Part shown: positions 5,121 through 47,524 of the stretch, piece by piece
Numbering within the stretch: position 1 is the first letter of the stretch
Layout of the letters: each line of letters begins with the position of its first letter
Made by a program: the position numbers and the translations under genes
Source: Thysanoteuthis rhombus
Taxonomy: Eukaryota; Mollusca; Cephalopoda; Oegopsida; Thysanoteuthidae
NCBI GenBank assembly: GCA_963457665.1
Contig: OY735224.1
Coordinates: forward strand, 53,361,429 to 53,425,428
Length of the DNA: 64,000 nucleotides
Reading direction: 5' to 3'
Notes under the pieces: generated by a model
Databases searched by the model: none
Told to the model about the DNA's origin: nothing
Seen by the model: the letters and a program-made list of their open reading frames with translations, nothing else

Positions 5121-6347
5121 TTATCTTGCCTCATAGAGCAGACTTTTGCCATCACTCCTGTGTATCAGCCTGTGTCTTTTTAAAGATGATCTCTGAGAAA
5201 ATGCTGTACTGCATACTTCACAAGTAAATGGCTTCTCCCCCGTATGTGTTAGCATATGTGTTTTTAAACAAGAACTAACAGAAAATGCCAACCCGCATAC
5301 TTCACAAGAATATGGTTTCTCTCCAGTGTGTGTTCGCATATGAGTTTTAAAATTGGAACTTTCGGAAAATGCAGACCCACACACTTCGCAAGAATATGGT
5401 TTCTCACCAGTGTGTGATCGCATGTGTACTTTTAACTTTGAACTATCGGAAAATGCGGACCCACACTCTTCACAACTATATGGTTTCTCCCCAGTGTGTG
5501 TTCGCAAGTGTTTTCTAAAATTAGAACTTTCAGAAAATGCCGACCCACACACTTCACAAGAATATGGTTTCTCTCCGGTGTGTGTATGTATATGTCTTTT
5601 TAAAGATGATCTCTGAGAAAATGCTGACCCACACACTTCACAACCAAATGGTTTCTCTCCAGTGTGTGTTAGCATATGTGTTTTCAAACATGAACTGACA
5701 GAAAATGCCAACCCACATACTTCACAAGCATATGGTTTCTCTCCAGTATGTGTTCGCATATGTGTTTTAAAATTAGAACTTTCGGAGAATGCCAGTCCAC
5801 ACACTTCACAAGAATATGGTTTCTCTCCAGTGTGTGATCTCATGTGAACTTTCAAATTGGAACTATCAGAAAATGCAGACCCACACACTTCACAATTATA
5901 AGGTTTCTCTCCAGTGTGGGTTCGTAGGTGTTTTTTAAAATTTGAATTTTCAGAAAATGCTGACCCACACACTTTACAAGAATATGGTTTCTCCCCAGTA
6001 TGTATCTGCACGTGTCTTTTTAAAGATGACCTCTGTGAAAATGCTGAACTGCATACTTCACAACTAAACGGTTTCTCTCCTGTGTGTGTGAGCATATGTG
6101 TTTTTAAACAGGAACTAACAGAAAATGCCAACCCACATACTTCACATGAATATGGTTTCTCTCCAGTGTGTGTTCGCATGTGTCTTTTAAAATTAGAACT
6201 TTCGGAAAATGCTGACCCACACACTTCACAAGAATATGGTTTCTCTCCAGTGTGTGACCTCATGTGTACTTTTAACTTTGAACTATCAGAAAATGCAGAC
6301 CCACACACTTCACAAATATATGTTTTCTCTCCAGTGTGCGTTCGCAT
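5121..6347 (-). CDS. C2H2 zinc-finger protein, 14 tandem fingers
   Basis: The open frame encodes 408 aa made almost entirely of 14 Krüppel-type C2H2 fingers (CxxC-12-HxxxH) joined by canonical TGEKP linkers, so it is expected to be a nuclear sequence-specific DNA-binding protein. All 14 fingers keep both Cys and both His. The helix types recur in fixed order (DSSxLKVH, ESSNFKxH, VSSCLKTH, QRSSLKRH, ExSNFxKH), a five-finger block of 420 bp present about 2.8 times. Several fingers have Phe in place of the usual helix Leu. There is no KRAB, BTB or ZAD domain. The first Met lies inside a linker (MRTHTGEK), so this is probably the array exon of a longer gene, or a remnant whose 5' fingers have decayed. 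The C-terminus is a short tail after finger 14. DNA target and biological role are unknown. Confidence 0.85.
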   Translation of the reverse strand: MRTHTGEKTYICEVCGSAFSDSSKLKVHMRSHTGEKPYSCEVCGSAFSESSNFKRHMRTHTGEKPYSCEVCGLAFSVSSCLKTHMLTHTGEKPFSCEVCSSAFSQRSSLKRHVQIHTGEKPYSCKVCGSAFSENSNFKKHLRTHTGEKPYNCEVCGSAFSDSSNLKVHMRSHTGEKPYSCEVCGLAFSESSNFKTHMRTHTGEKPYACEVCGLAFSVSSCLKTHMLTHTGEKPFGCEVCGSAFSQRSSLKRHIHTHTGEKPYSCEVCGSAFSESSNFRKHLRTHTGEKPYSCEECGSAFSDSSKLKVHMRSHTGEKPYSCEVCGSAFSESSNFKTHMRTHTGEKPYSCEVCGLAFSVSSCLKTHMLTHTGEKPFTCEVCSTAFSQRSSLKRHRLIHRSDGKSLLYEAR

Positions 6348-7200
6348 GTGTAACTTTGGATTTGAACTATCGGAAAAGGCTTCACGAGAATATTGCCTCT
6401 CCCATATGCATCTGTTTTCTCAAAAGTGTCCTCTGACCCAAACACTAGACAAGAATGGGGTTTCTCTCCGGTGTATGTTCATGCATGATTTTAAAGATGA
6501 ACTGACAGAAAATGATGAGCCACACACTTCACAGGAAGTGTTTTTTCTCTAGCCTGTATTTGCATGCACGTTTTCAAACCTGATTCCTTTACAAATACTA
6601 ACCCGCTCATTTCGCAAGGATACGCTTCTTAAAGAGGAACTATTAAAAAAACAAATTATTGTTCCTCTATCAAATTAATTCTTAATTATGATCACTGTGA
6701 AAATGCTGATCACCATTCTTTATATTTGGTTCTCCCCAGTGTTTGCATAGGTTCTTGATTCTAAATTCTGTAGGAATGCTCACTCCATAAAATGTCCTCT
6801 CTAATGTGAATTCGCAAATGGATTTAGAAATTTATCCCCATTTATAATGTTGATCTAACCATTCCAATAGTTTTTTTCCAATCTGTGTTGATGTTCATAA
6901 AAGTGAATTCCAAGATGATGATGAACTTTGCAGTATACTCCCTCATCAGCGTATACTTGGAAAAAATTAAAAACTCTGAATCACACACTTCACAATAATA
7001 CTGTTTCCTTCTGGTGTGTTTTACCATCAATGTTTTGAAATTTCCTTTCAATGTAGATGGGTTTACACTGGATGCCCACTGCTTTCAGATATCTTTTTAA
7101 ATACAAAATTGGCCAAAGAAGAATATTGCTTCAATTTTGTTTTTGGGTGATTACTTCTAAATATGAACTGTTTCAAGATGTAGACCTATATATCTAAAAA
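6348..7200 (-). pseudogene. decayed C2H2 fingers upstream of the intact array
   Basis: On the minus strand this stretch continues the array with recognisable but broken fingers. The finger just upstream keeps its helix (FSDSSNPKLH) but has lost its Cys pair, and the frame meets a stop near 6,419. Around 6,480-6,540 a finger reads CEVCGSSF with the first zinc-binding His changed to Cys, followed by a frame change. At 6,842-7,051 a frame contains YYCEVCDSEF without its His pair. Weaker traces reach about 7,200. I read this as the dying 5' edge of the same array. Confidence 0.7.
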
Positions 7201-8057
7201 AATACAGCAGCTCTATGACATGATCTTCCAAGTTTGTTTTTTGATGTGGGAAATTCTAGGAACTGTAATTGAACACACTTCAGAAGAACTTTCTTCGTTC
7301 TTTTTTTTTTTTGTTATGCATTTATTCAGTTGGGATTCATACGATTCACAGAAATTCTGTTCCTTTCTACGGAATGTTCAGAAAAATATATTCACCGAGA
7401 CAACAGTTTTGTAAACTTAATAATATTCGCCTTCTTGATTATATATCCATAAATTTCTGTTTCACCGTATAATATTTACAAACCACTGTCCGATGAATTC
7501 ATCTGGTTTCTACTTCAGCCGCTATCTGCAAATAAAAAAAAATATCATTAAGGAAATTGTTGGCTACTCACATTCAATAATTCTTGCCTATCTTATGATT
7601 AACCCCTCCACTTTTAGATACATTGTGCCTGAGATCTCGAGAGGAAAAGCTCAAATTGATCAAAAAATCTTCTGTTTCTTGACAATTGAAATGTTTTTGT
7701 CTAATCCATCCAAATTTTACAGTTCATGTGCCCCATAAGTAAAATATATTTCTCAGTAGAAGCATGGGAGCTTTGTCACATCTTTCGTCAAATTACTCTA
7801 TGATGTATAATAACATAGCGCTCATCCCAATATACTGGACCAATGGTTTTTAGTGAAATATCGCTTGACCCATAATATCAGGCCAACTACATCAAATATT
7901 TGGCTTACAGATTCAAAGGGTCAACCAACAAAAGTGGCAATCAGTGAAACCTTTCTTGATATTAAATGAAAAAAAGCACTAACTAGAAAATTTGTTTAAA
8001 CCTCGTGATCCAAAGAGTTAACAATCTCTTGTAAATGTTGATTATTATTTGATATTA
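7201..8057. other. AT-rich intergenic DNA
   Basis: Short open frames (for example 7,493-7,738 +) match nothing I recognise. No repeat structure stands out apart from T-runs. Confidence 0.5.
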
Positions 8058-8236
8058 AATTAAAAAAACCCAAAGGAATCAGTCATTTTCACAGTGTTCT
8101 TATTGTTTATAGACAGAGTGTACATAAAGATTCAACTATTTCACATGAATGTTATCTAGGCTTTCTTCCTGAATTTTGATAAAATGATAAGGTTTTTAAT
8201 TCATTAACATGTACACAAGAAAGGAAAGTTCTAGAA
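8058..8236. repeat. 179-bp direct repeat, left copy (flanks the inserted TRIM segment)
   Basis: Identical to 9,298-9,476 apart from one C/T difference. It begins at AATTAAAAAAACCC and ends at GTTCTAGAA. The two copies sit exactly at the ends of the inserted TRIM segment, which is the layout of a duplicated target site, although far longer than transposon target duplications. Confidence 0.9.
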
Positions 8237-9295
8237 CCTTAAGTGTAAACATCTCCTGCTTGAAAAAAACAAACAAGTTTTTCCCAGATTACAAATTCAC
8301 GTTTTTATTGTAGTTTTATTTTTTTGTTTTTGCTTCTATTGTGAAAGAATATATATTTTTTTACTCTACTAGTCATCAAACTATAGAATCGGAGTCGATT
8401 TTGGCTAAGAACGATTTTTCTTTCAATTCATCAAATATTGGGTGTTTTTTTGTTTTTTAAATATTTTCAGTTGTAACTGACATCTGATAAAATAAAAGGA
8501 CCAACCTCTTCCCCCCTCTCTTTATCTCCCCCGTTCCCCCTCTCACTCTTTGCCGTTCCCCTCCCTATTTTTCTTCTCTCTCCCTTTTCCCCTCTCTCCC
8601 ATTCTCTCTTCTTTTTTTTCTTCTCTCTTCCCTCCTTCTCTCTATTTCTTACTCTCCACTCTCTTGCTAATTCCTGAACTTTCTCTCACTCTCATAAAAG
8701 GACCAACCTCTTCCCCCCCTCTCTTTATCTCCCCCGTTCTCCTCCCTATTTTTCTTCTCTCTCCCTTTTCTTCCTCTCTCTCCCATTCTCTCTTTTCCTT
8801 TTTTCTTCTTCTCTCTTCCCTCCTTCTCTCTATTTCTTACTCTCCCCTCTCTTGCTAATTCCTGAACTTTCTCTCACTCTCGATCTGAAACATCCTAAAA
8901 ACAGGTCATTTTACGTAAAGTTCTACAAATGGACTATTTTCCCTATATTAACTGAGTCATTTTATGCCTTTGAAAATCGACTTTATTTTTTTCGTTCCCT
9001 TTCGACTTACTCTTCATCTTTTTTGTTTGTTTTGTGATGGCATTTTATTTACAAAATGATTTCATTTTATTTTCAGGTTGATTATTGGTCATCGTTCTGT
9101 CAGAGAAATGGCTCCAAACCAAAGTCCTAGTTTATTTCAATGCACCAGTTGCCATGAAGAGTTGAATCTAGAATCGAAGACATTACCATGTCTTCATTCT
9201 TTCTGTCGCTCTTGTCTAGACAGGAATTTGGTGGAACAGACGGATGGAAATGGTCGGTGTCCAGAGTGCCAAGAACCATTGATTCATGACCAGTT
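8237..9295 (+). pseudogene. inserted copy of TRIM-like gene 5' segment (intron end plus RING exon part)
   Basis: This 1,059-bp segment is a near-perfect copy of 14,371-15,430. I see only a handful of differences, including one base of T-run length and single substitutions in the C/T-rich part. It carries the C/T-rich intron, the TTTTCAG splice acceptor and the first 62 codons of the TRIM-like protein, then stops abruptly inside codon 63. Both ends abut the 179-bp direct repeats. The very low divergence implies a recent event. The copy is truncated after the RING finger and lacks both B-boxes, the coiled coil and the C-terminal domain. Confidence 0.9.
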
Positions 9296-9299
9296 TTAA
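9108..9299 (+). CDS. RING-only mini-ORF created by the duplication
   Basis: Starting at the same ATG as the parent gene, this frame gives 63 aa: the complete RING finger (Cys12, Cys15, Cys28, His30, Cys33, Cys36, Cys51, Cys54) and residues up to Gln62, then one new Phe codon and TAA supplied by the flanking repeat. All eight zinc ligands are kept. If transcribed and spliced, since the acceptor is present, it would make a lone RING domain that might compete with the full-length protein for an E2 enzyme. Whether it is expressed cannot be judged from sequence. It may simply be a truncated pseudogene. Confidence 0.45.
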   Translation: MAPNQSPSLFQCTSCHEELNLESKTLPCLHSFCRSCLDRNLVEQTDGNGRCPECQEPLIHDQF

Positions 9300-9476
9300 T
9301 TAAAAAAACCCAAAGGAATCAGTCATTTTCACAGTGTTCTTATTGTTTATAGACAGAGTGTACATAAAGATTCAACTATTTCACATGAATGTCATCTAGG
9401 CTTTCTTCCTGAATTTTGATAAAATGATAAGGTTTTTAATTCATTAACATGTACACAAGAAAGGAAAGTTCTAGAA
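9298..9476. repeat. 179-bp direct repeat, right copy
   Basis: Partner of 8,058-8,236, in the same orientation. The original single-copy sequence can be read by joining the left flank of 8,058 to the right flank of 9,476. Two extra T bases lie between the copied TRIM segment (ending 9,295) and this repeat. Confidence 0.9.
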
Positions 9477-12358
9477 TTGTTTTGTTGAAAGAGAAATATA
9501 CTTGATGATATTTAAAATTGCAAACCACTGTTAGAAAAAAAAAATTTGGTAAACCCTTTGAACACTGCCTCCCTCCTGCACATGTACAACTCCCTCAAAA
9601 GACACCTAGAGACTATATAAAGTGTGCAGTGTTGGATCTCTATCCAAGTCAGATGAAAGACAGAGGGCCATGATTCCGGGAGTACAAAAGCTCAAATAGG
9701 CAGGAAAACAGCAACTGTAATACACACTGTGTCTGATCCATGCCCCTGGATCAGGGGGTCATGATTGCTGGGATCGATGTTTGTGGATGAAATGCATGCA
9801 TCAGTGGCCCCTCATATGGCCACTTGCATATATGGACTTTCAAAGAGATGAAACATACCAAATATTCAGAGAGAGGTATAAATGTACCAAGAGTGGCAGC
9901 ACTGTTTTAAATTATCTCTTGCTTCATCAGCTGAATTAATTTTTTTTCTCAGATAAAATATAGATTTGAAAGGAAATTGCCGAAAATATAATCAATCCCC
10001 AGGGCGTAATACTAATAGTGCAAAAACAAGTAAAAGGTACCAGTCTGTTGGTAGCAACACATTTTTTCTTAAACGATAATTCATGAACAAAAAAAGTATT
10101 GTTCATAAGTATTTGAACAAGCTCAAAATCTGTTTTATTTCCCAAGATCTCATGGTCCATTATAGATTTTGAGCACGTGGGGATCAGAATTAACTTACTA
10201 GTTCCACCACTGTTCCGTCCAGCAAGGTGAGTTCAATTTTTTACTTTCCGAGACCAATTCTTACCAAGATTTTTGAATGATAAAGAAAGAAAAAAAAAAT
10301 GATCCCCTCATCAAATTCAATTCTGTTAGAAAATATTTTGAAGATATCCAACATTCAGAACCACAAAACATGACTAAATGCATGCCTTGTTATGTTGATT
10401 GCAAGAAATTTGGTTCTTCCAGCGTAATTTCCTGATTCAAACTCTCAGACCCAAGCAATTAGAAGTAAAATGTCCGTTTGTTCAAATACTTATGACACGT
10501 ACTGTACATCAGAGTGACAGCACATGACCTGTGTCAAATGAACAATTTTTTAAAAAGTTGATATTTTCATTATCAACAGAGCTGTACCTTATGCATTATT
10601 AGACTCCCTTTCCATTTTGAATCTCAGACAGTCAGCACCGGGATTCACACGAGTGTTCATTGAGAAGAAAACCATGGAAAATTAAGATGTAAGTAAAAAG
10701 TAACAGAAAGAAAATTGATATTAATGATTTTTAATAAAACATTGCAACACTGAAATAGAAAGCAAAAATAAGAATCCAAAGAATGGTATCACTCTTTTTC
10801 CATTTTATCTTCGTGGATTGAGATTCTCAACTCCAAAAGATAAAAACAAAAACGAATTAATACAATTACTGAAAAGGCAGACGTATTAATCATATCATCT
10901 GGTTCGAAAACAAATTTTAAAAAACAACTACTTTACTATGCAAATAGAAAAAAGGTATGTTTCAATATTCATGTGTATTTTGAAAAATAGTTTCTAAAAT
11001 ACAGAAGGGTATATATCTTCAAACTAGTGGAATTTTGATAAATAAGAACCCTGAATGATTAAAATCGAACTTCGGGTGTCCGAGGGGGTGGTCACAAAGT
11101 CAGGGTCCAGTTTTACATTATATGAGTATTGTAGATCGCTCACCTACTTTAGAGCCAGTTAATTCCCATCGCCACATTACGTATCTCTGCTCGACATTTA
11201 ATCAGTCTGATCGGATTTTTCCATCATTTACCCAGCCTCAAGGAGGAAAGATACTCCATTAAATACATTTTCACTGTTTGTGACATAGTAGAGAATTTAA
11301 AAAAAGAGAAACAGGGAAAGTAAAAGAACAAAAAAATCATGGAAGGTAAAATAATAAAATGGATTTGGATGAACTTACGGCTGGACGGAATGATAGGTAA
11401 AAATATGAGTCTCGGAATGAATGGCAGACGGCGTTGTTTTTTTCGGGTTTTTTTTTTTTTTTGAGAAATCAATAAAAAATCTTTAAAAATAGGAGTTGAA
11501 AAAAATAAATTCAGGAATTTATTTCCTCTCAGGTTAAAAAAGTTGAAAGGTAAAAAAAAAGAAAAAAAGTTACATGAGGAATGTATTGAGTGCGTTGACG
11601 GGAAAACGGTGTCTTACCAACTTTGTGTCAACGGCACAAAGATCCATTAATTGAAAGAACAGTTGTGTGATGCCAGTTTAGATGTTTTCCGTCGAAATCT
11701 AGATGGTTTTAGATGTCTGAAATGGCTATTTGCATGATAAGAGTAAATCTAAGAGTTTTCACCGACTGAATTAGCCGGATTGGTATGTTGTTCTTTCAAT
11801 TCTCAATGAGAAACAGGTCATGATGCTTTTTATGGAAATGAATTTGATAAATGCGTTTTCCCCCATTAACCCCGACATTGCATTTTCGTATCAGGCCGCA
11901 CCAGTGGAGCTTGAAGGCTGAAAGTATAAACATTTCAACTTTACTATGTTTGGAAAAAATGAATTTATTTTACCTCATTAAAATTCAACCCCAGATAAGT
12001 TTTAATTCGTGGGGTATGGGAGATCGAGATGTAATGAAAGTTTATACAAAATTGGTCTCTTAGTTTCTGCCCAGCAGCATTCGCGCTGGATTTTGGGGGA
12101 AAAAAATACCCCCCCCCAAGACCTTTTTGTTATCAGCACCTAACAAAGAGCAAGAGCAGTGATTCATTCGTTGATCATCCTTTTTTCCAATTTTTAATTG
12201 AATGTGGCATGCCGCCAAAAGATGGTCGTCACATAACAGTTTCTACCAAGTGACGAACCAGACCTGTATCATTTCAAATTCGATTCTTTTCAGACGTTTT
12301 TTCCCCAAATGACAAATGAGTTACCTGATTCTCTCTTGTGAAATTATTGTCTGAAATT
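9477..12358. other. AT-rich intergenic DNA
   Basis: No gene is recognised. TATATAAAG near 9,612 resembles a TATA box and lies in a slightly GC-richer patch (9,540-9,880), but no open frame of note follows. A 14-base A/T run and Lys/Phe-rich frames near 11,224-11,472 reflect composition only. Confidence 0.5.
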
Positions 12359-12800
12359 CTGGGATGAAATTTTGTTATGCCCTCAAATGATTCAGATGAG
12401 TATCCTCATCTTTGCTATTTTGATAATTTCATTCCAGTCGGTGAATTATGGTTTATTAAAAAAATGCAATCTATATATCACTAGACAGAATGAATAGGAA
12501 GTAGACCCGAATTATTTTTAAAAAGAAATCATCGGAAATATTCCAACAAAGATAATTGTGAATTTACGGGAATTTGAAAGATAAGTTTCGGTATCAAACT
12601 GGTGAATTAACTCTTAAATTCATACAAAAAAAGAAATTAATCCCCTTTGACCATTTGGTGGAGTTTTTAATATTGAATTCAATTCGGTTCTCTGGTGATC
12701 TCTAATGTGAATTTTAATATCTGCAACATGTCCAGCCCACTGCTATTTTAGTTTGCCTTAAAATATTTGGAAAAAGATTTGATAACATTCGTTAAGAAGC
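12359..12800. repeat. dispersed repeat R1, copy 2
   Basis: Shares the ordered landmarks listed for the copy at 2,957. It is considerably diverged, with small insertions such as an extra stretch before AATTCATACAAAAAAA. The copies are about 9.4 kb apart in the same orientation. Confidence 0.5.
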
Positions 12801-12916
12801 TAAAAGGGCTCCGTTTATAATTTTTAAGCTTGTGAAATTCAATTATATATGATTACTGCGTACAAGAAAATAGTAGAAAAACCTTAAAAACATTGGTTTT
12901 GAAGCTTTTTTTTTTT

Positions 12917-13122
12917 TTTACCTCAAAACAAAAGAAACAACAATTTCAAGGGCCTTCTCTTAGGCATTTAATAATTCTTTCTTCAAATTCGTTGAACCTG
13001 GGTTGAATGATTTTATCTTAAAATTATACTCTGATTAAACCCTCCAACATATCAATGAATTATATTTCGGCTTCACTTTTATTTATAATTACATTTTTCA
13101 CATACATAGCAGCCTCAAAATT
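12917..13122. repeat. dispersed repeat R2, copy 1
   Basis: About 206 bp, clearly homologous to 22,574-22,782 in the same orientation. Shared blocks run from TACCTCAAAAC through GGGCCTT, TCCTCCAACA-ATCAAT-like sequence and GCTTCACTTTTATTTATAAT to GCAGCCTCA. Identity is roughly four fifths by eye. No coding capacity, terminal inverted repeat or tRNA-like promoter box is seen, so the family is unclassified. Confidence 0.75.
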
Positions 13123-13354
13123 GTTGAGTGTATAATAGGTTTTTATTTCATTTCTGCATCAGATGTGTTGTTTTAATATACCTTATAGTTGATAAACATA
13201 CGACCTCAGACACAACATATGAGAATGATAAAAGCGGAAGCGGAAGCGGAAGTGGTTCGTATAGTCATAAAAACTCTCTAAAAAGTCTTGTTCTTAATTG
13301 AAAGGTTTATTCTTTGGACAGTGCTCCTTCTCCCTCAACCAGTGTTCTTCCGTT

Positions 13355-13368
13355 CTATATAAAGATAT
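13355..13368 (+). promoter_or_regulatory. possible TATA box upstream of the TRIM-like gene
   Basis: CTATATAAAGA lies in a GC-richer patch about 1.9 kb before the TRIM start codon and is preceded by a GCGGAA triplet repeat (about 13,236-13,254). The coding exon has a splice acceptor, so an upstream non-coding exon is required, and this is a plausible place for it. The evidence is only motif plus position. Confidence 0.2.
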
Positions 13369-13879
13369 CGTCTCCCACTCCATCTGCATCACTATCTCTT
13401 ACCCCTCCTCCTCTTCTAGTGCAATTAAGTAACGCCAGACGGCGTAATATTTCTTATCCAATGAAAAGCCTTATAATCCAATCACGTTAAAAAGTTCTCT
13501 CCTGAACACTCTCTTGAAAATATCTGGCAACAGAAATGTTGAAAACTTTGCTCTCAGAATCTGGTTTGTAATTTGGAGAAAAGGCAGGAATCACTACTAA
13601 AAAAAAAACTGTAAGTCTTGTTAAATGTTTTTTATTTAATTGAAAATATTCATTCAATCGAAAATATTCTACATGCTACACTATTTCCAGCTAAAACTAT
13701 TGAAAAGACGGCAACATAAGAAAAGCTTTAAATATGGCGAGATTCCTCATTTCCACATCTCAACAATTGAAAACCTACTATAATAGTTATTCTGAAATGT
13801 TCACTCTTTAGGAAGTGTTTTCTGTGAAAATTACAGGATAAATTGTTTGAATAACGTAGCAACTGGGATGAAATATCAT

Positions 13880-14640
13880 TTTCTCTATATTTTCACTCCA
13901 GTTGAATGACTTAACTAAACTACGCATTCGTAAGAGTCGGATTTTGCCCATCCTCCGTCATTGGTACGGAGGACCATAAGCGTAAACTTGTCTTAGTTTG
14001 GAAATCAGGTTCTTCAAGATTACGTATTTACGTTTCATGGTCTTTTTTTTTTTTTCTGAATCTATTGGGAAAGGATATTTTTTTCTTTCTACTACGCTAG
14101 TCATCAAACTACAGAATCTGTGCTGGCTTCAGTTAAAAACAAATTTTCTTAATATAGATTATTCTGAATTTTCATTTTTTACTGCAACTTGATATCTTAG
14201 AAAAAGAAAAAGTTGAAAGCAGTTATGAAAGAAACAATGTAATGTTCACTTTCCTACTATTATGCTCTCCTCAATGTTTACGCCCACTTCACTGCAGTTC
14301 AGTGACTCATCTAAACTACGCTATTCCAAACGTCGGCTTTTAGCGATATCTCTGTCATAAGTACGGGGGACCTTAAGTGTAAACATCTCCTGCTTGAAAA
14401 AAACAAACAAGTTTTTCCCAGATTACAAATTCACGTTTTTATTTTAGTTTTATTTTTTTGTTTTTGCTTCTATTGTGAAAGAATATATATTTTTTTACTC
14501 TACTAGTCATCAAACTATAGAATCGGAGTCGATTTTGGCTAAGAACGATTTTTCTTTCAATTCATCAAATATTGGGTGTTTTTTTGTTTTTTTAAATATT
14601 TTCAGTTGTAACTGACATCTGATAAAATAAAAGGACCAAC
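13880..14640. repeat. old tandem duplication (about 390-bp unit) upstream of the TRIM-like gene
   Basis: Two diverged units follow each other: about 13,880-14,265 and 14,266-14,640. Each has, in order, an AACTAAACTACGC-like or ATCTAAACTACGC motif, a GTACGG-GGACC-TAAG block, an A/T-rich stretch, and CTAGTCATCAAACTA followed by AGAATC. The left breakpoint of the segment copied to 8,237 lies inside the second unit at CCTTAAGTG. Confidence 0.65.
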
Positions 14641-15016
14641 CTCTTCCCCCCTCTCTTTATCTCCCCCGTTCCCCCTCTCACTCTTTGCCGTTCCCCTCCC
14701 TATTTTTCTTCTCTCTCCCTTTTCCCCTCTCTCCCATTCTCTCTTCTTTTTTTTCTTCTCTCTTCCCTCCTTCTCTCTATTTCTTACTCTCCACTCTCTT
14801 GCTAATTCCTGAACTTTCTCTCACTCTCATAAAAGGACCAACCTCTTCCCCCCCTCTCTTTATCTCCCCCGTTCTCCTCCCTATTTTTCTTCTCTCTCCC
14901 TTTTCTTCCTCTCTCTCCCATTCTCTCTTCTCCTTTTTTCTTCTTCTCTTTTCCCTCCTTCTCTCTATTTCTTACTCTCCCCTCTCTTGCTAATTCCTGA
15001 ACTTTCTCTCACTCTC
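14627..15016 (+). repeat. C/T-rich tandem pair (202-bp unit) in the intron
   Basis: A polypyrimidine-rich unit starting ATAAAAGGACCAACCTCTT is present twice in tandem (starts 14,627 and 14,829), each ending CCTGAACTTTCTCTCACTCTC. The same pair is in the inserted copy (starts 8,492 and 8,694), so it predates that event. It lies in the putative intron before the TRIM coding exon. The Ser/Leu/Phe-rich open frames here are composition artefacts. Confidence 0.8.
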
Positions 15017-15199
15017 GATCTGAAACATCCTAAAAACAGGTCATTTTACGTAAAGTTCTACAAATGGACTATTTTCCCTATATTAACTGAGTCATTTTAT
15101 GCCTTTGAAAATCGACTTTATTTTTTTCGTTCCCTTTCGACTTACTCTTCATCTTTTTTGTTTGTTTTGTGATGGCATTTTATTTACAAAATGATTTCA

Positions 15200-15211
15200 T
15201 TTTATTTTCAG
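15200..15211 (+). promoter_or_regulatory. 3' splice site of the TRIM-like coding exon
   Basis: A T-rich tract followed by TTTATTTTCAG and then GTTGATTATTGG. The start codon follows about 32 bp into the exon. This is a typical metazoan acceptor and explains why no promoter sits directly upstream of the ATG. Confidence 0.6.
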
Positions 15212-15242
15212 GTTGATTATTGGTCATCGTTCTGTCAGAGAA

Positions 15243-17132
15243 ATGGCTCCAAACCAAAGTCCTAGTTTATTTCAATGCACCAGTTGCCATGAAGAGTTGA
15301 ATCTAGAATCGAAGACATTACCATGTCTTCATTCTTTCTGTCGCTCTTGTCTAGACAGGAATTTGGTGGAACAGACGGATGGAAATGGTCGGTGTCCAGA
15401 GTGCCAAGAACCATTGATTCATGACCAGTTGAGCCTCTGCCCAATTGTGGCCAAGGCTTTGAGACGTCATCAACTGCAATCAGCCGAATGGAAGTGTGAT
15501 TTATGTACGGAAGATGGTGCTGAATCCACGGCCAGTAATTGGTGTCATGAGTGCCAAAAACTCTTCTGCAATAATTGCTGTAGATTCCACAAGAAATTCT
15601 ACTTGACACATAAAGCAAGAGCCTTAACTGAAAATGAGATAAGGGAAGTGATACATTCAATGACAACTGACATGTGCCCTTTGCACAGAAGCCCCAAAGA
15701 CTCATATTGCGAGCTTTGCAATATTTGTTTTTGTAACACTTGTTACAGAACTCATCTTCCTGATTCTCCTGGCTGTTTGTCTCAGCCATTGTTGGTAAAG
15801 GAGGAGGCTTCTAAACAAAAATCTCAGGGCCCCACCCTGGCAAAAGAAATGGACGACCTCGAGATGAGTCAAAGAAGGCTGATCGAAAGGACAATGAATT
15901 ACACTGCAGAACTGAATGCTGATTGTGATTCGAAATGCAGGCAAATGTGGGAGGATTTTGAAGAAATGAGGGTGAATGCAAAGCGGAAAACGGAAGAATT
16001 GTGCGAAGATATGAAGCGAATAACAGACGAGCAGGTGAAAAAGTGGCAATACCTCTTGGTAGAAAATGAGAAAACATTGAAAGAAATCAAGATCTGGCGC
16101 TTACATCTGGATCATTTGCTGAGTGAATCCCAACAAGACGCAGACGTTGTTTGTGGTCTGCGGATGTTGAGATCGAAACTGTCATCTCGCCTTCAAAAAC
16201 CAGTCGGACAGGGAGGGAAATGTCATTTGAATGTCACGTTTCCCAATTGGTGGACAGAAACGTTGGCCAATTTTAAAACCAAAAAGATTGGCTGCATTTA
16301 TTTGACCCCAGAATACTTGACTTCTGCAGATAATGTCATCTTGGAAAAAGAATGGAATCTGCTGGATTCGAACATGGGTATTACATCGATTCTAGTAACA
16401 GGACAAAACAATCACCTCCTAATCTGTGATCATAACAGCAAATCAATCATCGAAGCCAGTGAAGATGGAACAGTTATAGATCGGTGTCTTTTAAAGGAAG
16501 GATCATTTGAATTATCTCCCTTGGATATCTGTTCTGTGTCCCCAAACATTTTTGTTGTTGTTGCTTGGGAGTTGTCCCGGAGGGTGAATGATAAACTTAT
16601 ATTTTTGGAGAGAAACCAACTTCCTCCGATTTTACAGATGAAAAAAATCATCGACACAGGGAAGAAGATGACTATCCGTTCTTTGTGTCAAACAAACGAA
16701 TATATTTTCGTTTGTGACGATTCATTTAATGTTGATTCCTTCTCAAAGGAAGGCCAAAAAATAAAAACTATCAAAACTGGAGAATCGTTTGATCTTTGTT
16801 GGCCCGTAATTCGTGCCGATCCCTGGACGGGAGATTTTTGGATGACAAGGATAAATTCTTCTGAATTATTTTGTTTTAATCCAAATGGAAAGGAAATCCA
16901 ATCTGTGAAAATTGAAGAAACGATTTCAGATTTTTGTGTGAATGATTTTGGTCAAGGCTATTTTTGTAATCAGAAAGGGATTTTCACTTTTATCCCGGAA
17001 ACAAAGATACTGTACAAATTTGAGAAAAAACCTGAAAAGTCTCCCAGAATTTTTGTTTTAAAAAATGAAATATTTGTTTATCTCGAAATTAATGGGAAAC
17101 ATTCAATGAAAATCTTCAAACTCTTTTACTGA
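15243..17132 (+). CDS. TRIM-like RING/B-box/coiled-coil protein, putative E3 ubiquitin ligase
   Basis: 629 aa from an ATG in strong initiation context (G at -3, G at +4); the frame is open to TGA at 17,130. The RING finger is at residues 12-54 (C12, C15, C28, H30, C33, C36, C51, C54). B-box 1 is at about 85-123 (C85, C88, C101, C104, C109, C112, H116, H123) and B-box 2 at about 145-180 (CPLH, CELC, CFCNTC, H171). A Glu/Lys-rich coiled coil spans about 198-315. The C-terminal 250 residues have repeated beta-rich segments such as VTGQNNHLLICDHNSKSI and TNEYIFVCDD, resembling NHL-type propeller blades as in TRIM2/3/56-like proteins. No SPRY domain is seen. Known TRIM proteins act as RING E3 ligases in the cytoplasm or nucleus, often in immunity or development; the substrate here is unknown. 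The coding region is a single exon. The exon's start has been copied to 8,237-9,295. Confidence 0.88.
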   Translation: MAPNQSPSLFQCTSCHEELNLESKTLPCLHSFCRSCLDRNLVEQTDGNGRCPECQEPLIHDQLSLCPIVAKALRRHQLQSAEWKCDLCTEDGAESTASNWCHECQKLFCNNCCRFHKKFYLTHKARALTENEIREVIHSMTTDMCPLHRSPKDSYCELCNICFCNTCYRTHLPDSPGCLSQPLLVKEEASKQKSQGPTLAKEMDDLEMSQRRLIERTMNYTAELNADCDSKCRQMWEDFEEMRVNAKRKTEELCEDMKRITDEQVKKWQYLLVENEKTLKEIKIWRLHLDHLLSESQQDADVVCGLRMLRSKLSSRLQKPVGQGGKCHLNVTFPNWWTETLANFKTKKIGCIYLTPEYLTSADNVILEKEWNLLDSNMGITSILVTGQNNHLLICDHNSKSIIEASEDGTVIDRCLLKEGSFELSPLDICSVSPNIFVVVAWELSRRVNDKLIFLERNQLPPILQMKKIIDTGKKMTIRSLCQTNEYIFVCDDSFNVDSFSKEGQKIKTIKTGESFDLCWPVIRADPWTGDFWMTRINSSELFCFNPNGKEIQSVKIEETISDFCVNDFGQGYFCNQKGIFTFIPETKILYKFEKKPEKSPRIFVLKNEIFVYLEINGKHSMKIFKLFY

Positions 17133-17269: not shown

Positions 17270-17796
17270 CTTCGAAATTCAATTTTTCGTATCAATGAGT
17301 TTCATCATTTTTCATTCAAAGCTGAAATTCTTATTTTGAGATTTTTATTGAAACCGTGATATGAGTGTAGACGGATAATCATACAAATATGTTTTTTGTT
17401 TTTTAAAAAATTTAATCATTCAATTTTTTATATTGTCTGTACGTGGGATTTTCACAACCGTAGCGACTCTCTGTTTCAACTGGGAACAAGTGATGGCAAG
17501 TTTTTTCAATAATTTGATGTATTATATATTTTTTTTCTTTTTTTTTTTTAAAATGGAGAAAAAAATACAGAACAGACAATTTTCAGTTTTAAAAAATTAA
17601 TGTAACTTTTTTTTTTTTTTTAGATTTATCTATTATTTTTGTTTTGTTTTTTTAAATTTTCCTTATAAATGTAATTTTTCGTATGAATGAGTTTTTCTGC
17701 CTTATGTTTTTCATTCATGATTTGAACTTGTTGAATTTTCACATTCATGGCAACGAAGATCAAGAGACAGCAAGTTTCCTCAATTTATCAATGTAT
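17270..17796. repeat. diverged direct repeat leading into the minisatellite
   Basis: AATTTTTCGTAT-AATGAGTTT occurs near 17,280 and again near 17,671. Each copy is followed by matching TTTTCACA and GCAAGTTT-TCAAT blocks (near 17,450-17,510 and 17,738-17,790). The second copy runs into CAATGTATCTTCTCATACGA, so the minisatellite seems to have arisen from sequence inside this repeat. Confidence 0.45.
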
Positions 17797-18192
17797 CTTC
17801 TCATACGAATTCATCTGTCTTCTCATACGAATTCATCTGTCTTCTCATACGAATTCATCTGTCTTCTCATACGAATTCATCTGTCTTCTCATACGAATTC
17901 ATCTGTCTTCTCATACGAATTCATCTGTCTTCTCATACGAATTCATCTGTCTTCTCATACGAATTCATCTGTCTTCTCATACGAATTCATCTGTCTTCTC
18001 ATACGAATTCATCTGTCTTCTCATACGAATTCATCTGTCTTCTCATACGAATTCATCTGTCTTCTCATACGAATTCATCTGTCTTCTCATACGAATTCAT
18101 CTGTCTTCTCATACGAATTCATCTGTCTTCTCATACGAATTCATCTGTCTTCTCATACGAATTCATCTGTCTTCTCATACGAATTCATCTGT
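17797..18192. repeat. 22-bp minisatellite, 18 units
   Basis: Each unit is CTTCTCATAC followed by GAATTCATCTGT (an EcoRI site per unit). Eighteen units fit the interval exactly and are essentially identical. Because 22 is not a multiple of three, all three plus frames rotate through the same peptide and stay open. The 192- and 188-codon frames across it are artefacts. Confidence 0.97.
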
Positions 18193-19232
18193 CTTCTCAT
18201 ACGAATTCGTCTGTCTGTCTTCTCCTACGAATTCATCTGTCTGTCTTCTCCTACGAATTGATTCATCTGTCTTCTCCTACGAATTGATTCATCTGTCTTC
18301 TCCTACGAATTGATTCGTCTGTCTTCTCATACCAATTGATTCGTCTGTCTTCTCATACCAATTGATTCGTCTGTCTTCTCATACCAATTGATTTGTCTGT
18401 CTTCTCATACCAATTGATTTGTCTGTCTTCTCATACGAATTGATTTGTCTGTCTTCTCATACGAATTGATTTGTCTGTCTTCTCATACGAATTGATTTGT
18501 CTGTCTTCTCATACGAATTGATTTGTCTGTCTTCTCATACGAATTGATTTGTCTGTCTTCTCATACGAATTGATTCATCTGTCTTCTCCTACGAATTGAT
18601 TCATCTGTCTTCTCATACGAATTGATTTGTCTGTCTTCTCATACGAATTGATTTGTCTGTCTTCTCATACGAATTGATTTGTCTGTCTTCTCATACGAAT
18701 TGATTTGTCTGTCTTCTCATACGAATTGATTTGTCTGTCTTCTCATACGAATTGATTTGTCTGTCTTCTCATACGAATTGATTTGTCTGTCTTCTCATAC
18801 GAATTGATTTGTCTGTCTTCTCATACGAATTGATTTGTCTGTCTTCTCATACGAATTGATTTGTCTGTCTTCTCATACGAATTGATTTGTCTGTCTTCTC
18901 ATACGAATTGATTTGTCTGTCTTCTCATACGAATTGATTTGTCTGTCTTCTCATACGAATTGATTTGTCTGTCTTCTCATACGAATTGATTTGTCTGTCT
19001 TCTCATACCAATTGATTCGTCTGTCTTCTCATACCAATTGATTCGTCTGTCTTCTCATACCAATTGATTCGTCTGTCTTCTCATACCAATTGATTCGTCT
19101 GTCTTCTCATACCAATTGATTCGTCTGTCTTCTCATACCAATTGATTCGTCCGTCTTCTCATACCAATTGATTCGTCCGTCTTCTCATACCAATTGATTC
19201 ATCCGTCTTCTCATACGAATTGATTCATATGT
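18193..19232. repeat. 26-bp minisatellite, 40 units, derived from the 22-bp unit
   Basis: Exactly 40 units of 26 bp follow the 22-bp block without a gap. The first two gained 4 bp by doubling CTGT. The rest gained 4 bp in the middle (GAATTGATT-TGT or GAATTGATTCATCTGT). Variants come in runs: CTCCTACGAATTG, then ACCAATTG units, a long run of ACGAATTGATTTGT, then ACCAATTGATTCGT, ending in CCGT-type units. Confidence 0.95.
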
Positions 19233-22573: not shown

Positions 22574-22782
22574 TTTCTACCTCAAAACCAAAGAAATAAC
22601 AATTTTGAGGGCCTTTTCTTGGGCAATTAATAATCAATTTCCTCGAATTCGTCCAACCAGGGCATAATGATTCTATCTTCGAATTATACATTTATTGAGT
22701 CCTCCAACACATCAATTGATGATAATTCAGCTTCACTTTTATTTATAATTAAATTTTCCTCATATATCGCAGCCTCAGAATT
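22574..22782. repeat. dispersed repeat R2, copy 2
   Basis: Homologous to 12,917-13,122 (landmarks given there). Its right end, GCAGCCTCAGAATT, is immediately followed by an RTE fragment. Confidence 0.75.
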
Positions 22783-23213
22783 ATGAACACCTTCTTCAAG
22801 ATGGGACCCAATAGGAAATGGACTTGGAAGAGCCCCAATCACGAAACAACGAACGAAATAGACTACATCCTAACGGACAAAAACGATATCGTCAAGGACA
22901 TCCAAGTCCTAAATCAAGTCAATGTAGGCAGCGACCACAGAATGGTACGATGTAAAGTACAAATAAACACCAATAAAGAACGCAGGAAAATGTTCCACTC
23001 AAAACCGCAGCCTGTAAACATACCAAAAGAGCACGCTCAATCTTTCAAGCTCGAATTGAAAAACAGATTCAGAATTCTTACTGAACAAGACAACACCAAC
23101 ATCAACGAACTAAGCAACAAAATGACAGCGTCAATAATTGAAGTAGCCTCTACATTCAAACCGATGAGCACACAACCCATTAGCAAAATCTCAGATGAAA
23201 CTAGAAATCTCAT
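22783..23213 (+). mobile_element. internal RTE LINE fragment (endonuclease C-terminus and linker)
   Basis: Encodes the end of the RTE endonuclease and the region after it: MNTFFKMGPNRKWTWK, NEIDYILTDKND, then the SDHRMVRCKVQ motif that ends AP-type endonucleases, then NIPKEHAQSFKLELKNR to ISDETRNLM. It matches 28,425-28,860 (-) closely. Unlike that copy it keeps one frame through the SDH motif. It is cut off at both ends, which is unusual for a LINE, and the right end joins unrelated sequence. Confidence 0.88.
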
Positions 23214-23589
23214 GAGTGAGAGATTATACACATTTGGAGCCCGTGGCGTAACTGCATGGCTGTGTGTATGTGTAAGGCTCAATATCGGTGAAGTGATATT
23301 GGCAAAGTTAGTACAGAGATAGGTCAGGGTGGAAGAAAGGTTGAGATCGGGTCAGCCAGGAGGTCAGCGAAATGATAGCGATCTTAGAGCGATGGCAAAA
23401 GGGAGAGAGTGGCTGCCAAGAGAGGCCAGGGCCAAACGCATGTCTTGCTAGAGGGCCTTGCGCCAATGATGATTGGACCATGTGGGTCTACGTGTTATAC
23501 AAAGGTCGTTAGAGGAAGTGACGTTTTCGACATCAATCTAAAAGAATGTTTTCGTGTTTGTTTCCTAAATAAAGTAGAACGGGCGCTAA
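23214..23589. other. GC-richer inserted segment, family not recognised
   Basis: About 375 bp with higher GC than its surroundings separates the RTE fragment from satellite block A. It contains AATAAA near 23,568. Length, composition and a late AATAAA would suit a solo LTR fossil, but no second copy, primer site or coding part is present to confirm that, and other origins are possible. Confidence 0.3.
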
Positions 23590-26574: not shown

Positions 26575-28056
26575 TCAGTCTTTTAGCGTCCGTCGTTGGA
26601 CATAGACCTTCCCCAGGATTTGCCACACTTCTCTATCATGGGCGTCACGGAGCCAGTAGTTCCTGAACTTGTCTAGTTCATCTCTCCATCTAATATTTTG
26701 CCGGCCTCGGTTGCGCATATGGTCTCGGGGAATCCATGTTGTGAGTCGTGATGTCCATCGATTGTCAGCCATTCTTGCAACATGGCCAGCCCACCGCCAT
26801 TTGAGATTTTTTATGGATTCTATGATGTCTCTAACTCTTGTCTTTTCCCGGATGTGTTGTGCTGTTTTGTGGTCTCTCCATGTGAGGCCCAGCATTATTC
26901 TTTCATGTGCACGTTGCATGGTTCTCAGCTTACGGGTCTGTCTCTTGGTTAAATTCCATGTTTCAGCTCCATAAGTGACTATTGGGAGGATGCATTGGTT
27001 ATACACCCTTCTCTTTAGGATTAATGGGATCTTATTATTTTTGAAGGTTGAGCTTGCTCTGCCAAAGGCTTGCCATCCTAGTGTGATTCTTCGCTTGATT
27101 TCTTCTTCTTTTGAGGGTCTCATGGAGATTCGTTGCCCTAGGTAGATGTAGTGGTCTACTTTCTCGACTTCTGTGTCCTCGATTTCGATCTTAGTATTCT
27201 TATCTCCAATGTGGTTGTTGCACATGATCATCGTCTTGCTGAAGTTCATGTGTAGGCCGACTTTCTTGCTCTCCTCATTTAGTTCATCTATCATTAGTTG
27301 GAGGTCGTGTAGGTTCTCTGCGAAAAGGGCTATGTCGTCTGCGAATCTGAGGTTGCTCAGATACTCGCCGTCTATTTTAATTCCTTTACTCTCCCAGTCT
27401 AGCCTTCTGAAGATCATCTCGAGGCAGGCTGTGAAGAGTTTAGGTGAGCTGGTATCACCTTGTCTTACTCCTTTCTGGAGCTGGAAGGGGTCCGAGTCTT
27501 TATGTAGCCTGATAAAGGAGCTGCCGTGATTGTATATATGTTTCAACACTTCAACATATACTGGATCTACACCTTGCCGACTGATGGCCTCCATGACCTT
27601 AGGGATTTCTACTGAGTCGAACGCCTTTTTGAAGTCGATAAATGCTACGGCAAGTGGTAGTCTATACTCTGCTGCTTTTTCCTTCAGTTGATTTATCGCG
27701 TGCAGGTGGTCCATGGTCGAGTAGCTTCTTCTAAAGCCAGCCTGTTCACGTCGCTGGTTTTCATCGAGTGTTTTTGTGATTCGGTTGGTGATGATCTTCG
27801 TGAAAAGTTTATATACACAGTTGAGTAGGCTTATAGGCCTATAGTTGTTGAGGTCTTTCGGGTTTCTTTTTTTATATAAAAGCATTATGATAGCAGTATT
27901 CCATTCGTCTGGGACTTTACTGTGTTTTAGACACAGGTTGGAGAGGACGGCCAGTTTCCTATTGATGATTTTACCTGCTTTTCGGAGTAGGTCGATGGTG
28001 ATGTTGTCTGGTCCAGGGGCAGTTCCTTTCTTCGTCTGTTTAATGGCTTCCTTCAC
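26575..28056 (-). CDS. RTE reverse transcriptase region
   Basis: 493 codons from an internal Met; the frame is open further upstream to about 28,335, so the true polyprotein start lies in the endonuclease part. Reverse-transcriptase motifs are clear: GTAPGPDNI (11-19), NNYRPISLL (70-78), EQAGFRRSYST (104-114), AFIDFKKAFDSV (138-149), GVRQGDTSSPKLF (196-208) and the catalytic FADD (238-241). The C-terminal part has TYGAETW and the conserved WAGHVARM and GRQNIRW stretches also found in the two shorter fragments. It copies element RNA at the target site. No stop lies within this frame. Confidence 0.9.
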   Translation of the reverse strand: MKEAIKQTKKGTAPGPDNITIDLLRKAGKIINRKLAVLSNLCLKHSKVPDEWNTAIIMLLYKKRNPKDLNNYRPISLLNCVYKLFTKIITNRITKTLDENQRREQAGFRRSYSTMDHLHAINQLKEKAAEYRLPLAVAFIDFKKAFDSVEIPKVMEAISRQGVDPVYVEVLKHIYNHGSSFIRLHKDSDPFQLQKGVRQGDTSSPKLFTACLEMIFRRLDWESKGIKIDGEYLSNLRFADDIALFAENLHDLQLMIDELNEESKKVGLHMNFSKTMIMCNNHIGDKNTKIEIEDTEVEKVDHYIYLGQRISMRPSKEEEIKRRITLGWQAFGRASSTFKNNKIPLILKRRVYNQCILPIVTYGAETWNLTKRQTRKLRTMQRAHERIMLGLTWRDHKTAQHIREKTRVRDIIESIKNLKWRWAGHVARMADNRWTSRLTTWIPRDHMRNRGRQNIRWRDELDKFRNYWLRDAHDREVWQILGKVYVQRRTLKD

Positions 28057-28303
28057 CTCCCACGGGGTTACTTTTGGGAAGTCCTCTAGTTGTTTGCCCG
28101 TGTCTTGCGTATCTTGCTCATTGTTTTGCAGTCCTTGTTTGGACGAATAAAGTTTTTGGTAGAATTCTTTGGCACGTTTGACAATCCTGTCTCTGTCTGT
28201 TGTTAGGTTTCCATTTTCCTCGAGTATGTTAGTTATTTGCCTTCGTCCCGAGTTGAGGAGTTTGTTTATAGCTTTGAAGCCCCGACCTTTTTCAAGAGTT
28301 GAT

Positions 28304-28699
28304 TCAATGACTGCCGTTGTGTATCTCCTTCTGTCTTCTCCGTTTCTTCTTGATTAATTTGTTTAGTTCAGCCTCTTCAATTTTCTCTCTCGTTGTTGTC
28401 GGTGGCTTGAGGTTTCTGCGTTTTTCCATGAGATTTTTAGTCTCATCCGAGATTTTGCTAATGGGTTGTTTGCTCATTGGCTTGAATGTAGAGGCTACTT
28501 CAATTATTGACGTTGTCATTTTGCTGCTTAGTTCGTTGATGTTGGTGCTGTCTTGTTCAGTAAGAATTCTGAATCTGTTCCTCAATTCAAGCTTGAAAGA
28601 TTGAACGTGCTCTTTTGGTATGTTTAGAGGCTGCAGTTTTGTATGGAACATTTTCCCGCGTTCTTTATTGGTGTTTATTTGTACTTTACATCGTACCAT
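28304..28699 (-). CDS. RTE linker between endonuclease and reverse transcriptase (frame fragment)
   Basis: 131 codons beginning MVRCKVQ, directly after the SDH motif of the endonuclease, and running through ISDETKNLMEKRRNLK to a Lys/Arg-rich end. It is the same protein region as 22,925-23,213 (+). It is separated from its neighbours only by frame changes in this LINE copy, so it is not an independent gene. Confidence 0.8.
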   Translation of the reverse strand: MVRCKVQINTNKERGKMFHTKLQPLNIPKEHVQSFKLELRNRFRILTEQDSTNINELSSKMTTSIIEVASTFKPMSKQPISKISDETKNLMEKRRNLKPPTTTREKIEEAELNKLIKKKRRRQKEIHNGSH

Positions 28700-29741
28700 T
28701 CTGTGGTCGCTGCCTACATTGACTTGATTTAGGACTTGGATGTCCTTGACGATATCGTTCTTGTCCGTTAGGATGTAGTCTATTTCGTTTTTTGTTTCGT
28801 GATCTCTTCCAAGTCCATTTCTTACTGGGTCCCTTCTTGAAGAAGGTGTTCATGATTTTGAATCCATTAGCCGTTGCAAAGTTTACAAGATCTTCTCCTC
28901 TCCCGTTGCGTATTTTGTATCCAAATTTGCCGACGCAATTTTCATTTCCTTGTCCTACTTGTGCGTTGAAGTCTCCCATGATAACATTGAAGTGTTTTCT
29001 GGTGCTTTGGAGTAGGGAGTTCAAGTCATCATAGAAGTTGTCTATTTCTTGTTGGGTTGATTGCGAAGTGGGGGCGTAGACTTGGATTATATTGAGTTTG
29101 TATCGTTCTGAAAGTTGTATGGTGACGCTAGCTACTCGGTCAGAGACGGCTTTGAAGCCAGTTACATTGTCTTTCAGGTTCTTATTGATGAGAAAGCCAA
29201 CTCCACTTTGTTTTACTTTCTCTTTACCGTAGCTGTAAAGAAGATGCTTGCTTCTCAGTTCGATTAGTTCTTCTCCGGGTCTTCTTACCTCACTAATGCC
29301 TATGATGTCCCATTTGACATTTCTGATTTCACTTTCTAGATCAGTTAGGTGCATGTCAGCTGACAGTGTTCTGACGTTGTATGTGCCTATGTATAAATTT
29401 GTCTTCTTGTTGACAGTCTTAGAGTTCTGTTGAAATGGTCGTTGTTTGAGCGGTGACTCAGTAGGGACAGATGGTCCCTTGGTGAAGGGTTTGGGTAGTC
29501 GCTTTCGGAGCACATCACCCCTACCCAAAGTAAGTGATGTGGCTGAGTCTTTTGGGGCCGATGACCCAGCAGGAACTGACGTACTCTTGGTGTAGTTTTT
29601 GGGTAGTCGCCCTTGGAGCATATCACCCCCACCCAAAGCAAGTGATATGGCTGGGCCTTTTGGTACCGAGGTCCCAGCAGGAACGGCCCATATAATATTT
29701 GGTGTGCAAATCATGGGGAGTAATGGGCCATGCCCTGCCAC
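28686..29741 (-). CDS. RTE AP-like endonuclease region
   Basis: 351 codons. Residues 21-90 are two imperfect repeats of about 37 aa (PAGTSVPKGP-type and PAGSSAPKDS-type). The endonuclease starts near 115: TYNVRTLS (120-127), the catalytic Glu in ISEVRRPG (149-156), VGFLINK (181-187), IIQVYAPTSQ (218-227) and GDFNAQVG (256-263). After WTWK at 309-312 the frame shifts and the last 38 residues are out of register, so the terminal SDH motif falls in another frame. The enzyme nicks target DNA for target-primed reverse transcription. Confidence 0.88.
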   Translation of the reverse strand: MAGHGPLLPMICTPNIIWAVPAGTSVPKGPAISLALGGGDMLQGRLPKNYTKSTSVPAGSSAPKDSATSLTLGRGDVLRKRLPKPFTKGPSVPTESPLKQRPFQQNSKTVNKKTNLYIGTYNVRTLSADMHLTDLESEIRNVKWDIIGISEVRRPGEELIELRSKHLLYSYGKEKVKQSGVGFLINKNLKDNVTGFKAVSDRVASVTIQLSERYKLNIIQVYAPTSQSTQQEIDNFYDDLNSLLQSTRKHFNVIMGDFNAQVGQGNENCVGKFGYKIRNGRGEDLVNFATANGFKIMNTFFKKGPSKKWTWKRSRNKKRNRLHPNGQERYRQGHPSPKSSQCRQRPQNGTM

Positions 29742-29893
29742 GCTGGTCTAGGACGTGTTGGCAGGGGGTCTAGTGGATTGTCCACTAGGGGTCAGTGGCT
29801 AAAGAGCTCCACCGGCTCTTGATACACATCCATAATGTTCTTGTGAAACAAGAGTGGATGTTCGGAGCACCAAGGTTAAAAAAAAAAAAAAAA

Positions 29894-39469: not shown

Positions 39470-40030
39470 AGCTCGCAGCTCACCTGGACGGACTGCTGTT
39501 GACCGCTCCAACTTTCCGACTACGTATCGCTGACCTGCGTGACCACCTGACTTGTGTGAAAAAAATATCAAGTCAGTCAGATCAAGTTAGCTTTTCAACT
39601 GACTATTATTGTGTAGAAAGCTTCTGGTAGACCTTGTGGAATAGTCCGATCAAGAGACTCGATGCTGCCCAACCCATGTGCGGAACGAAGAAGGCATCCA
39701 CGGTACGAGTGCCGCCACCGTCCGTCCGTCCGTCCGTCCGTCTCCGGACAGCGTGGTGGCCGCCCAAGATGCGTAGCACGTTAGGCAAAGATCGATCGAT
39801 CGATCGATCGATCGATCGAACAAGCTCGTGTTATCAGGTTGTTGTGAGGCCCACACAGCAGTCCACCCAGGTGAGCAGCAAGCTCGCCGGCTCAAGTGGC
39901 TCCTGAGTTAGTTAGTCAGAGGGCTAGCCAACCCTCTGGGTGATTGGAGAACCATACGACGAACGAAAGTGGAGGATAAAGACGGAAAGGCAAACCAGAG
40001 GACAACGACGACAGCGGCGGCGGCGGCAGC

Positions 40031-40061
<31 letters not shown>

Positions 40062-42148: not shown

Positions 42149-42192
<44 letters not shown>

Positions 42193-46964: not shown

Positions 46965-47524
46965 CTAGTGGAAGTGCCTTCTCGACCGATAGCGGCTATT
47001 TCCATCAAATTTGGCTACATCGAAAAATACATCAAATGCAGCCAATTCAATGGTACCGTTGCAATCAGCACGTCAAACTACACCAGAAAAAGCCATAAAA
47101 TCGATAGGTAAAAATGATATTCGAAACACCATTTTTGACGGCTCTCTTATGTATGTGCTGGAAGTGCCTTCTCGACCAATAGCAGCTATTTCCATCAAAT
47201 TGGGCTAAATCGAAAAATACATCAAATCCACCCGATCCAATGGTACCGTTGCAATCAGCTCGTCAAACTACGCCAGAAAAAGCCATAAAATCGATAGGTA
47301 AAAATGACATTCAAAAGACCATTTTTGACGGCTCACTTATGTACGTGCTGGAAGTGCCTTCTCGACCAATAGCGGCCATTTTCATCAAATTGGGCTGAAT
47401 CGAAAAATACATCAAATCCACCCGATCCAATGGTACCGTTGCAATCAGCACGTCAAACTACGCCAGAAAAAGGCATAAAATCGACAGGTAAAAATGACAT
47501 TCAAAAGACCATTTTTGACGGCTC

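Follow-up and report, generated by a model that had tools for sequence, protein, structure and literature searches.

How did a kilobase of a TRIM-type gene come to lie between two almost identical direct repeats, a few kilobases upstream of the gene itself? We examined this arrangement in a stretch of 64,000 nucleotides (hereafter the window) of the cephalopod Thysanoteuthis rhombus, which is taken from contig OY735224.1 of assembly GCA_963457665.1 (positions 53,361,429 to 53,425,428, forward strand) and does not contain any N. The locus lies ~0.79 Mb away from a contig end. We refer to the repeat as R, to the inserted copy as S', and to the segment that it resembles as S.

Arrangement of the locus

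Read from left to right, the segments occur in the order R, S', R, 4.9 kb, S, with every unit in direct orientation and all of them on one contig (Table 1). In a self-BLAST of the window, 8236-9295 matched 14370-15430 with 99.6% identity over 1,061 columns (E 0.0), and 8055-8236 matched 9295-9476 with 98.9% identity over 182 bp (E 1.7e-90); given these E-values, neither match is due to chance. Reading base by base, we found 4 differences between S' and S in 1,058 columns, which consist of three substitutions (copy/source: 8310 G/T, 8795 T/C and 8815 C/T) and one T-run indel at 8452. The core of R has one mismatch (8153 T versus 9393 C), and with its ambiguous edge counted the comparison extends to 182 columns with 2 differences, the second being at edge position 8057 (A, versus T at 9297). 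These readings confirm the description in an earlier note on this DNA, made from the sequence alone, of a 1,059-bp copy of 14371-15430 between 179-bp direct repeats with one mismatch. The same note placed the copy about 6 kb upstream of its source, which is correct from start to start (6.1 kb), but the end of S' is separated from the start of S by 5.1 kb.

Table 1. Features of the locus and its surroundings, in window coordinates
Feature	Position	Strand	Basis
C2H2 zinc-finger open frame	5121..6419	-	Pfam, 14 zf-C2H2 stretches
R, left copy	8056..8236 (core 8058-8236, 179 bp)	+	BLAST and base-level edges
S', inserted copy of 14371-15430	8237..9295	+	99.6%; 4 differences in 1,058 columns
Pyrimidine-rich tract in S'	8505..8853 (349 bp, 90.5% C+T)	+	maximal-scoring segment
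63-codon open frame, complete RING finger (putative)	9108..9299	+	translation; Pfam zf-C3HC4, 34.4 bits versus cut-off 21
R, right copy	9296..9476 (core 9298-9476)	+	BLAST; similarity extends into right flank in C32 paralogue
NML interval between duplicated segments	9477..14370 (4,894 bp)	+	no high-identity second copy (search within window)
S, source: intron 3' end, splice acceptor, start codon, RING coding part	14371..15430	+	paralogue alignments
Source TRIM-type coding sequence, 629 codons, single open frame	15243..17132	+	translation; Pfam

R and the insert sit upstream of the zinc-finger open frame. The NML interval contains older matches to other places (12441-12564, 12914-13122 and 13006-13086, at 80.7-81.5%), and one part of it, 14002-14118, resembles 8271-8390 at 76.6%.

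A survey for similar triples covered one 264-kb block, which includes 5,000 N, and allowed repeats of 40-800 bp and spacers of 100-6,000 bp after masking of low-complexity sequence. At an identity of at least 95%, the spacer was copied elsewhere in the block for one of two direct pairs, namely the present locus, and there was no second case in the 264-kb block. Lowering the identity to 90% gave 16 direct pairs and eight flagged spans, consisting of the present locus and seven spans at 76.7-79.8 kb (window numbering) that are probably a continuation of the 190-bp satellite described below. At 85% the pairs numbered 25, and at least two further spans were flagged, 43942-44607 and 104028-104960.

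The window has several other repetitive features. A 190-bp satellite array occupies 46969-64000, with 89.7 copies in the window, and reaches its right end. The region 39646-44607 includes a GC-rich stretch (0.53-0.56 at 40001-44000, versus 0.37-0.40 on both sides) and is internally duplicated several times, in both direct and inverted orientation, for the most part at 82-92% identity. On the minus strand, 26575-29747 holds a LINE-like element whose frames are of the reverse transcriptase and endonuclease types; part of this element matches 22775-23214 in inverted orientation at 93%. Directly downstream of the TRIM-type gene, a 26-bp minisatellite spans 17796-19225 with 57.8 copies.

Source, insert-free relatives and age

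The TRIM-type gene encodes a protein whose RING scores above the Pfam cut-off, and whose B-box scores 17.1 bits versus a cut-off of 24.1 (E 0.0061). The copied unit consists of the 3′ end of an intron with its splice acceptor, and the first 188 nt of coding sequence, which cover the RING only. The expression 'copied TRIM exon', which had been used for the insert, therefore applies to the exon part, but the exon is not whole and the end of the intron is included.

Searching the genome with the TRIM-type coding sequence gave at least 42 matches (40 of 112 candidates scored), in a list that is incomplete and from which S' itself is absent. We fetched 12 of these loci, one of which is the gene itself, leaving 11 paralogues (of 41 other listed matches). 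Since all 11 are continuous in alignment through both 14371 and 15430, this segment is the source, its edges are not the ends of an element, and the proposed direction of copying, from source to copy, is upheld. A further search with the upstream part of the source (14371-15239) found near 100% identity only at S and S' among the scored matches (40 of 245 candidates), which identifies the neighbouring gene as the template. The remaining scored matches reach at most 81%, except for one 51-bp piece at 84%, and another TRIM paralogue is thus ruled out as donor by identity.

None of the 42 listed matches to the TRIM coding sequence, which are spread over 12 contigs, is more than 1.2 Mb away from a contig end (scored: 40 of 112 candidates). 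The same is true of 39 of 39 once contigs C49 and C51 are set aside, both of which are shorter than 1.2 Mb. A subtelomeric expansion of this TRIM-type family is likely. For the flank of the zinc-finger gene (7100-7973), scoring of 40 of 270 candidates gave at least 43 matches in the genome; many of them have low contig coordinates, and others lie in the interior. We also noticed that a pyrimidine-rich unit of 188 bp occurs as 1.8 tandem copies in both S (14700-15038) and S' (8565-8903). In six paralogues, the two query halves of this repeat match overlapping subject stretches, as they would with a single unit, so the doubling seems to be private to the locus and to predate the copying.

Near-identical copies of R number two in the genome, both at the locus. 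Its more distant relatives comprise one good match (C32:528364-528536, 74% over 173 bp) and three pieces of 50-56 bp at 82-84%. The insert is absent from both of the paralogous sites that we examined in the same genome, on contigs C32 and C20. The C32 site has a single R, with similarity extending 37 bp beyond the right edge of R (to 9513) and a zinc-finger array to the left of R, on the same side as in the window; the stretch directly left of R (window 7866-8063) is unaligned, and a comparison over 20 kb listed no S-like match (matches of more than 60 columns, E up to 1e-5). At the other site (C20:289701-290900), alignment of the left flank extends to 8046, and that of the right flank begins again at 9630 and then at 9840, with only 93 bp separating the left-flank block from the block that starts at 9630. 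The last part of the left block is overlapped by a weak match to R and the beginning of the right flank (62%, 153 columns). Neither site has a clear second R. As both are diverged paralogues (62-77% in aligned blocks) rather than orthologous alleles, they reveal the older arrangement of the family and not that of this very allele. They agree with the earlier note in that the insertion is derived and entered a formerly single R.

We considered whether the left edge of R is the boundary of an element, a suspicion raised by the fact that similarity starts near it (8064-8077) in C32, C7, C26 and C19. However, the C20 paralogue aligns through to 8046, so the left flank of R is shared, and divergence of the other four loci is the more likely explanation.

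The paralogues also bear on the differences between the copies. At 8310, all 11 share the base of the source and the copy differs, although the adjoining alignment is gappy. At 8815/14950, the copy's base is found in 4 paralogues, the source's in 1 and a third base in 6, and at 8795/14930 and the 8452 indel all 11 agree with the copy, but both positions fall in low-complexity sequence that does not align reliably. The C32 paralogue has T at the position equivalent to 9393 (read by eye), and the right R has therefore probably mutated there. Since the change at 8310 is private with respect to 11 of 11 paralogues, and that at 9393 with respect to C32, the copies appear to have mutated since the event. 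Their divergence amounts to 3 substitutions in 1,058 (S) plus 1 in 179 (R), or ~0.32%. Long matches between TRIM paralogues have 81-85% identity, with two short pieces reaching 87% and 93%. By this measure, the event is recent relative to the divergence of the TRIM paralogues, and the young age previously proposed from the few differences is borne out.

S' retains the end of the intron, the acceptor, the start codon and a complete RING. In the resulting putative RING-only frame, the first 62 residues match the source exactly, and the stop codon is supplied by the right copy of R. The 188 coding bases of S' are identical to those of the source, which is uninformative on selection because such identity is expected at this age. 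We regard this frame, as predicted from translation, as a by-product of the event.

Order of events

The explanation that we prefer, with a probability of about one half, is a single local event of repair or replication in which the template was switched twice on the same strand. Synthesis would pass through R to its right end (9476) and then switch for the first time, with a forward jump of 4.9 kb that lands at 14371. About 1,059 bp of the 5′ part of the TRIM-type gene would be copied, as far as 15430, before a second switch leads back by 6.1 kb to the start of R, where synthesis would continue. The outcome would be a doubled R, with one copy on each side of S'. We infer the single event, its replicative nature and the path of the polymerase from the arrangement of the segments. 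The double switch is preferred on three grounds: it needs a single event, its donor is close by and in direct orientation, and the structure has the published DUP-NML-DUP form. This is a preference, as the order R-S'-R-NML-S is equally expected from template switching, from fill-in with a captured patch, and from tandem duplication plus deletion, and the finished sequence is compatible with all three orders of events.

The junctions share few bases: 1 bp at R-S', and 0, 1 or 2 bp at S'-R depending on where two ambiguous T nucleotides are placed. Of 200,000 random joins within window positions 1-46000, 46% shared 1 bp or more and 18% shared 2 bp or more. Because random joins do as well, nothing at the junctions speaks positively for switching driven by microhomology, and we rejected microhomology as positive evidence for MMBIR. 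Pyrimidine-rich tracts are able to stall replication forks; S carries its 349-bp C+T tract at 14640-14988, midway along its length and away from both edges.

An alternative with an exact geometric fit is a staggered break, in which two nicks on opposite strands ~180 bp apart at R are followed by capture of a 1-kb patch templated by the neighbouring gene and by fill-in of the overhangs, so that R would be a 180-bp target-site duplication. Fill-in at paired-nick breaks has been shown experimentally to yield tandem duplications, with the 43-bp overhangs described in PMC8355091. Capture of proximal DNA at breaks is represented by 824 probable human repair-mediated duplications (RDs) with a donor within 5 kb, as catalogued in PMC2671141, and target duplications were present in 6 of 39 inspected proximal breakpoints. 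However, those target duplications are of 4-21 nt, compared with 179-182 bp here, and those inserts have a mean of 162 bp and a maximum of 619 bp, compared with ~1,058 bp here. A captured patch would also be free to insert either way, and S' is direct, though a single case decides nothing. We consider a staggered break unlikely. The proposed target-site duplication thus fits the geometry of the R pair, but a staggered-break origin is not established, since other routes give the same order.

One of these routes was omitted from the earlier note, whose two explanations, fill-in and template switching, both fit. If the 6.1 kb between the start of R and the end of S were first duplicated in tandem, and 4.9 kb were then lost from inside the first copy, the observed junctions would be reproduced exactly, that of S-end with R-start through the duplication and that of R-end with S-start through the deletion, and microhomology would be unnecessary. 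This route involves two events instead of one, which is an argument from parsimony only, as no sequence feature contradicts it; we likewise hold this sequence of steps to be improbable.

The 99.6% identity of the S copies could suggest an assembly artefact, that is, a false join of two haplotypes or repeats. However, the window is continuous in its bases, the copies bear private differences, and the bases at 8310 and 9393 look like later changes when compared with the paralogues, which makes an artefact very improbable. Least probable of all is the insertion of an unspliced transcript fragment via RNA by a LINE-type enzyme: LINE-like frames are present in the window and an A-run lies near the left edge of R, but both ends of the insert are devoid of poly-A (poly-A/T being found in 0 of 39 inspected proximal human insertions in PMC2671141), the intron end and splice acceptor are retained, the duplication is far above the usual length, and the donor is ~5 kb off, although reading one window favours nearby donors. 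No hallmark of LINE-mediated retrocopying was seen, and the retained intron end, the lack of poly-A and the nearby donor support the earlier conclusion that copying occurred at the DNA level. We also rejected a transposon or LTR-type element with R as its terminal repeats, since inspection by eye revealed no short repeat common to the two outer flanks, and since R forms no dispersed high-identity family. No transposon hallmark was seen, in line with the previously noted lack of transposon ends.

Comparison with known duplications

Human disease cases of the DUP-NML-DUP form are much larger than the locus described here, in which the segments measure only ~0.18 kb and 1.06 kb and the microhomology is not above chance. 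A duplicated target segment flanking a break is reportedly also a feature of the rice insertions of Vaughn and Bennetzen (2014). DUP-NML-DUP structures, or linked interspersed duplications, are ascribed to replicative template switching in the accounts of PMC12616954 and PMC6902434, and a 627-kb duplication is named among the human cases in the former. The present locus has in common with the structures described there two direct duplicated segments on the same chromosome, separated by an interval of normal copy number (checked within the window), and two novel junctions that join the segments mutually and that are here read at the base level.

The locus resembles the RDs described in PMC2671141 in being a nearby intrachromosomal copy with insert-free related sites and no poly-A, and in that a target duplication is sometimes present. 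As with RDs, there is one nearby donor, the neighbour alone being near-identical among the scored matches, and the acceptor site is empty in relatives at 2 of 2 sites, which are paralogous rather than orthologous. It differs in that the donor is 5.1 kb off, slightly past the 5-kb class, and in that insert and duplication exceed the sizes given above. As in the fill-in tandem duplications at staggered breaks of PMC8355091, the target segment is doubled across a break, but unlike in the small duplications described there, a kilobase of ectopic sequence separates the copies. Templated sequence insertion polymorphisms, as presented in PMC5110952, are also copied from elsewhere in the genome, and are divided into class 1, which has a target duplication and poly-A features, and class 2, which has neither. 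In contrast to both, the present case combines a long duplication with the lack of poly-A, and has a nearby donor.

The case therefore belongs to a known class of genome change, although it exceeds the catalogued proximal repair duplications in size, and no new mechanism is required. A much broader reading would be that, in this genome, repeated local template-switch copying of 5′ gene parts to new places diversifies the TRIM-type and zinc-finger genes that lie close to chromosome ends, and that this event made a new RING-only gene, with an acceptor site, a start codon, an entire RING and a stop codon contributed by the target; we consider this reading quite improbable. What the locus does provide is a natural example in an animal genome of a template-switch or repair-captured duplication whose source, insert-free relatives and both junctions are readable. 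It also cautions that an apparent '179-bp target-site duplication' may be something other than a target-site duplication. It further shows a way in which part of a gene, with one domain complete, can end up close to its parent, possibly in a single step.
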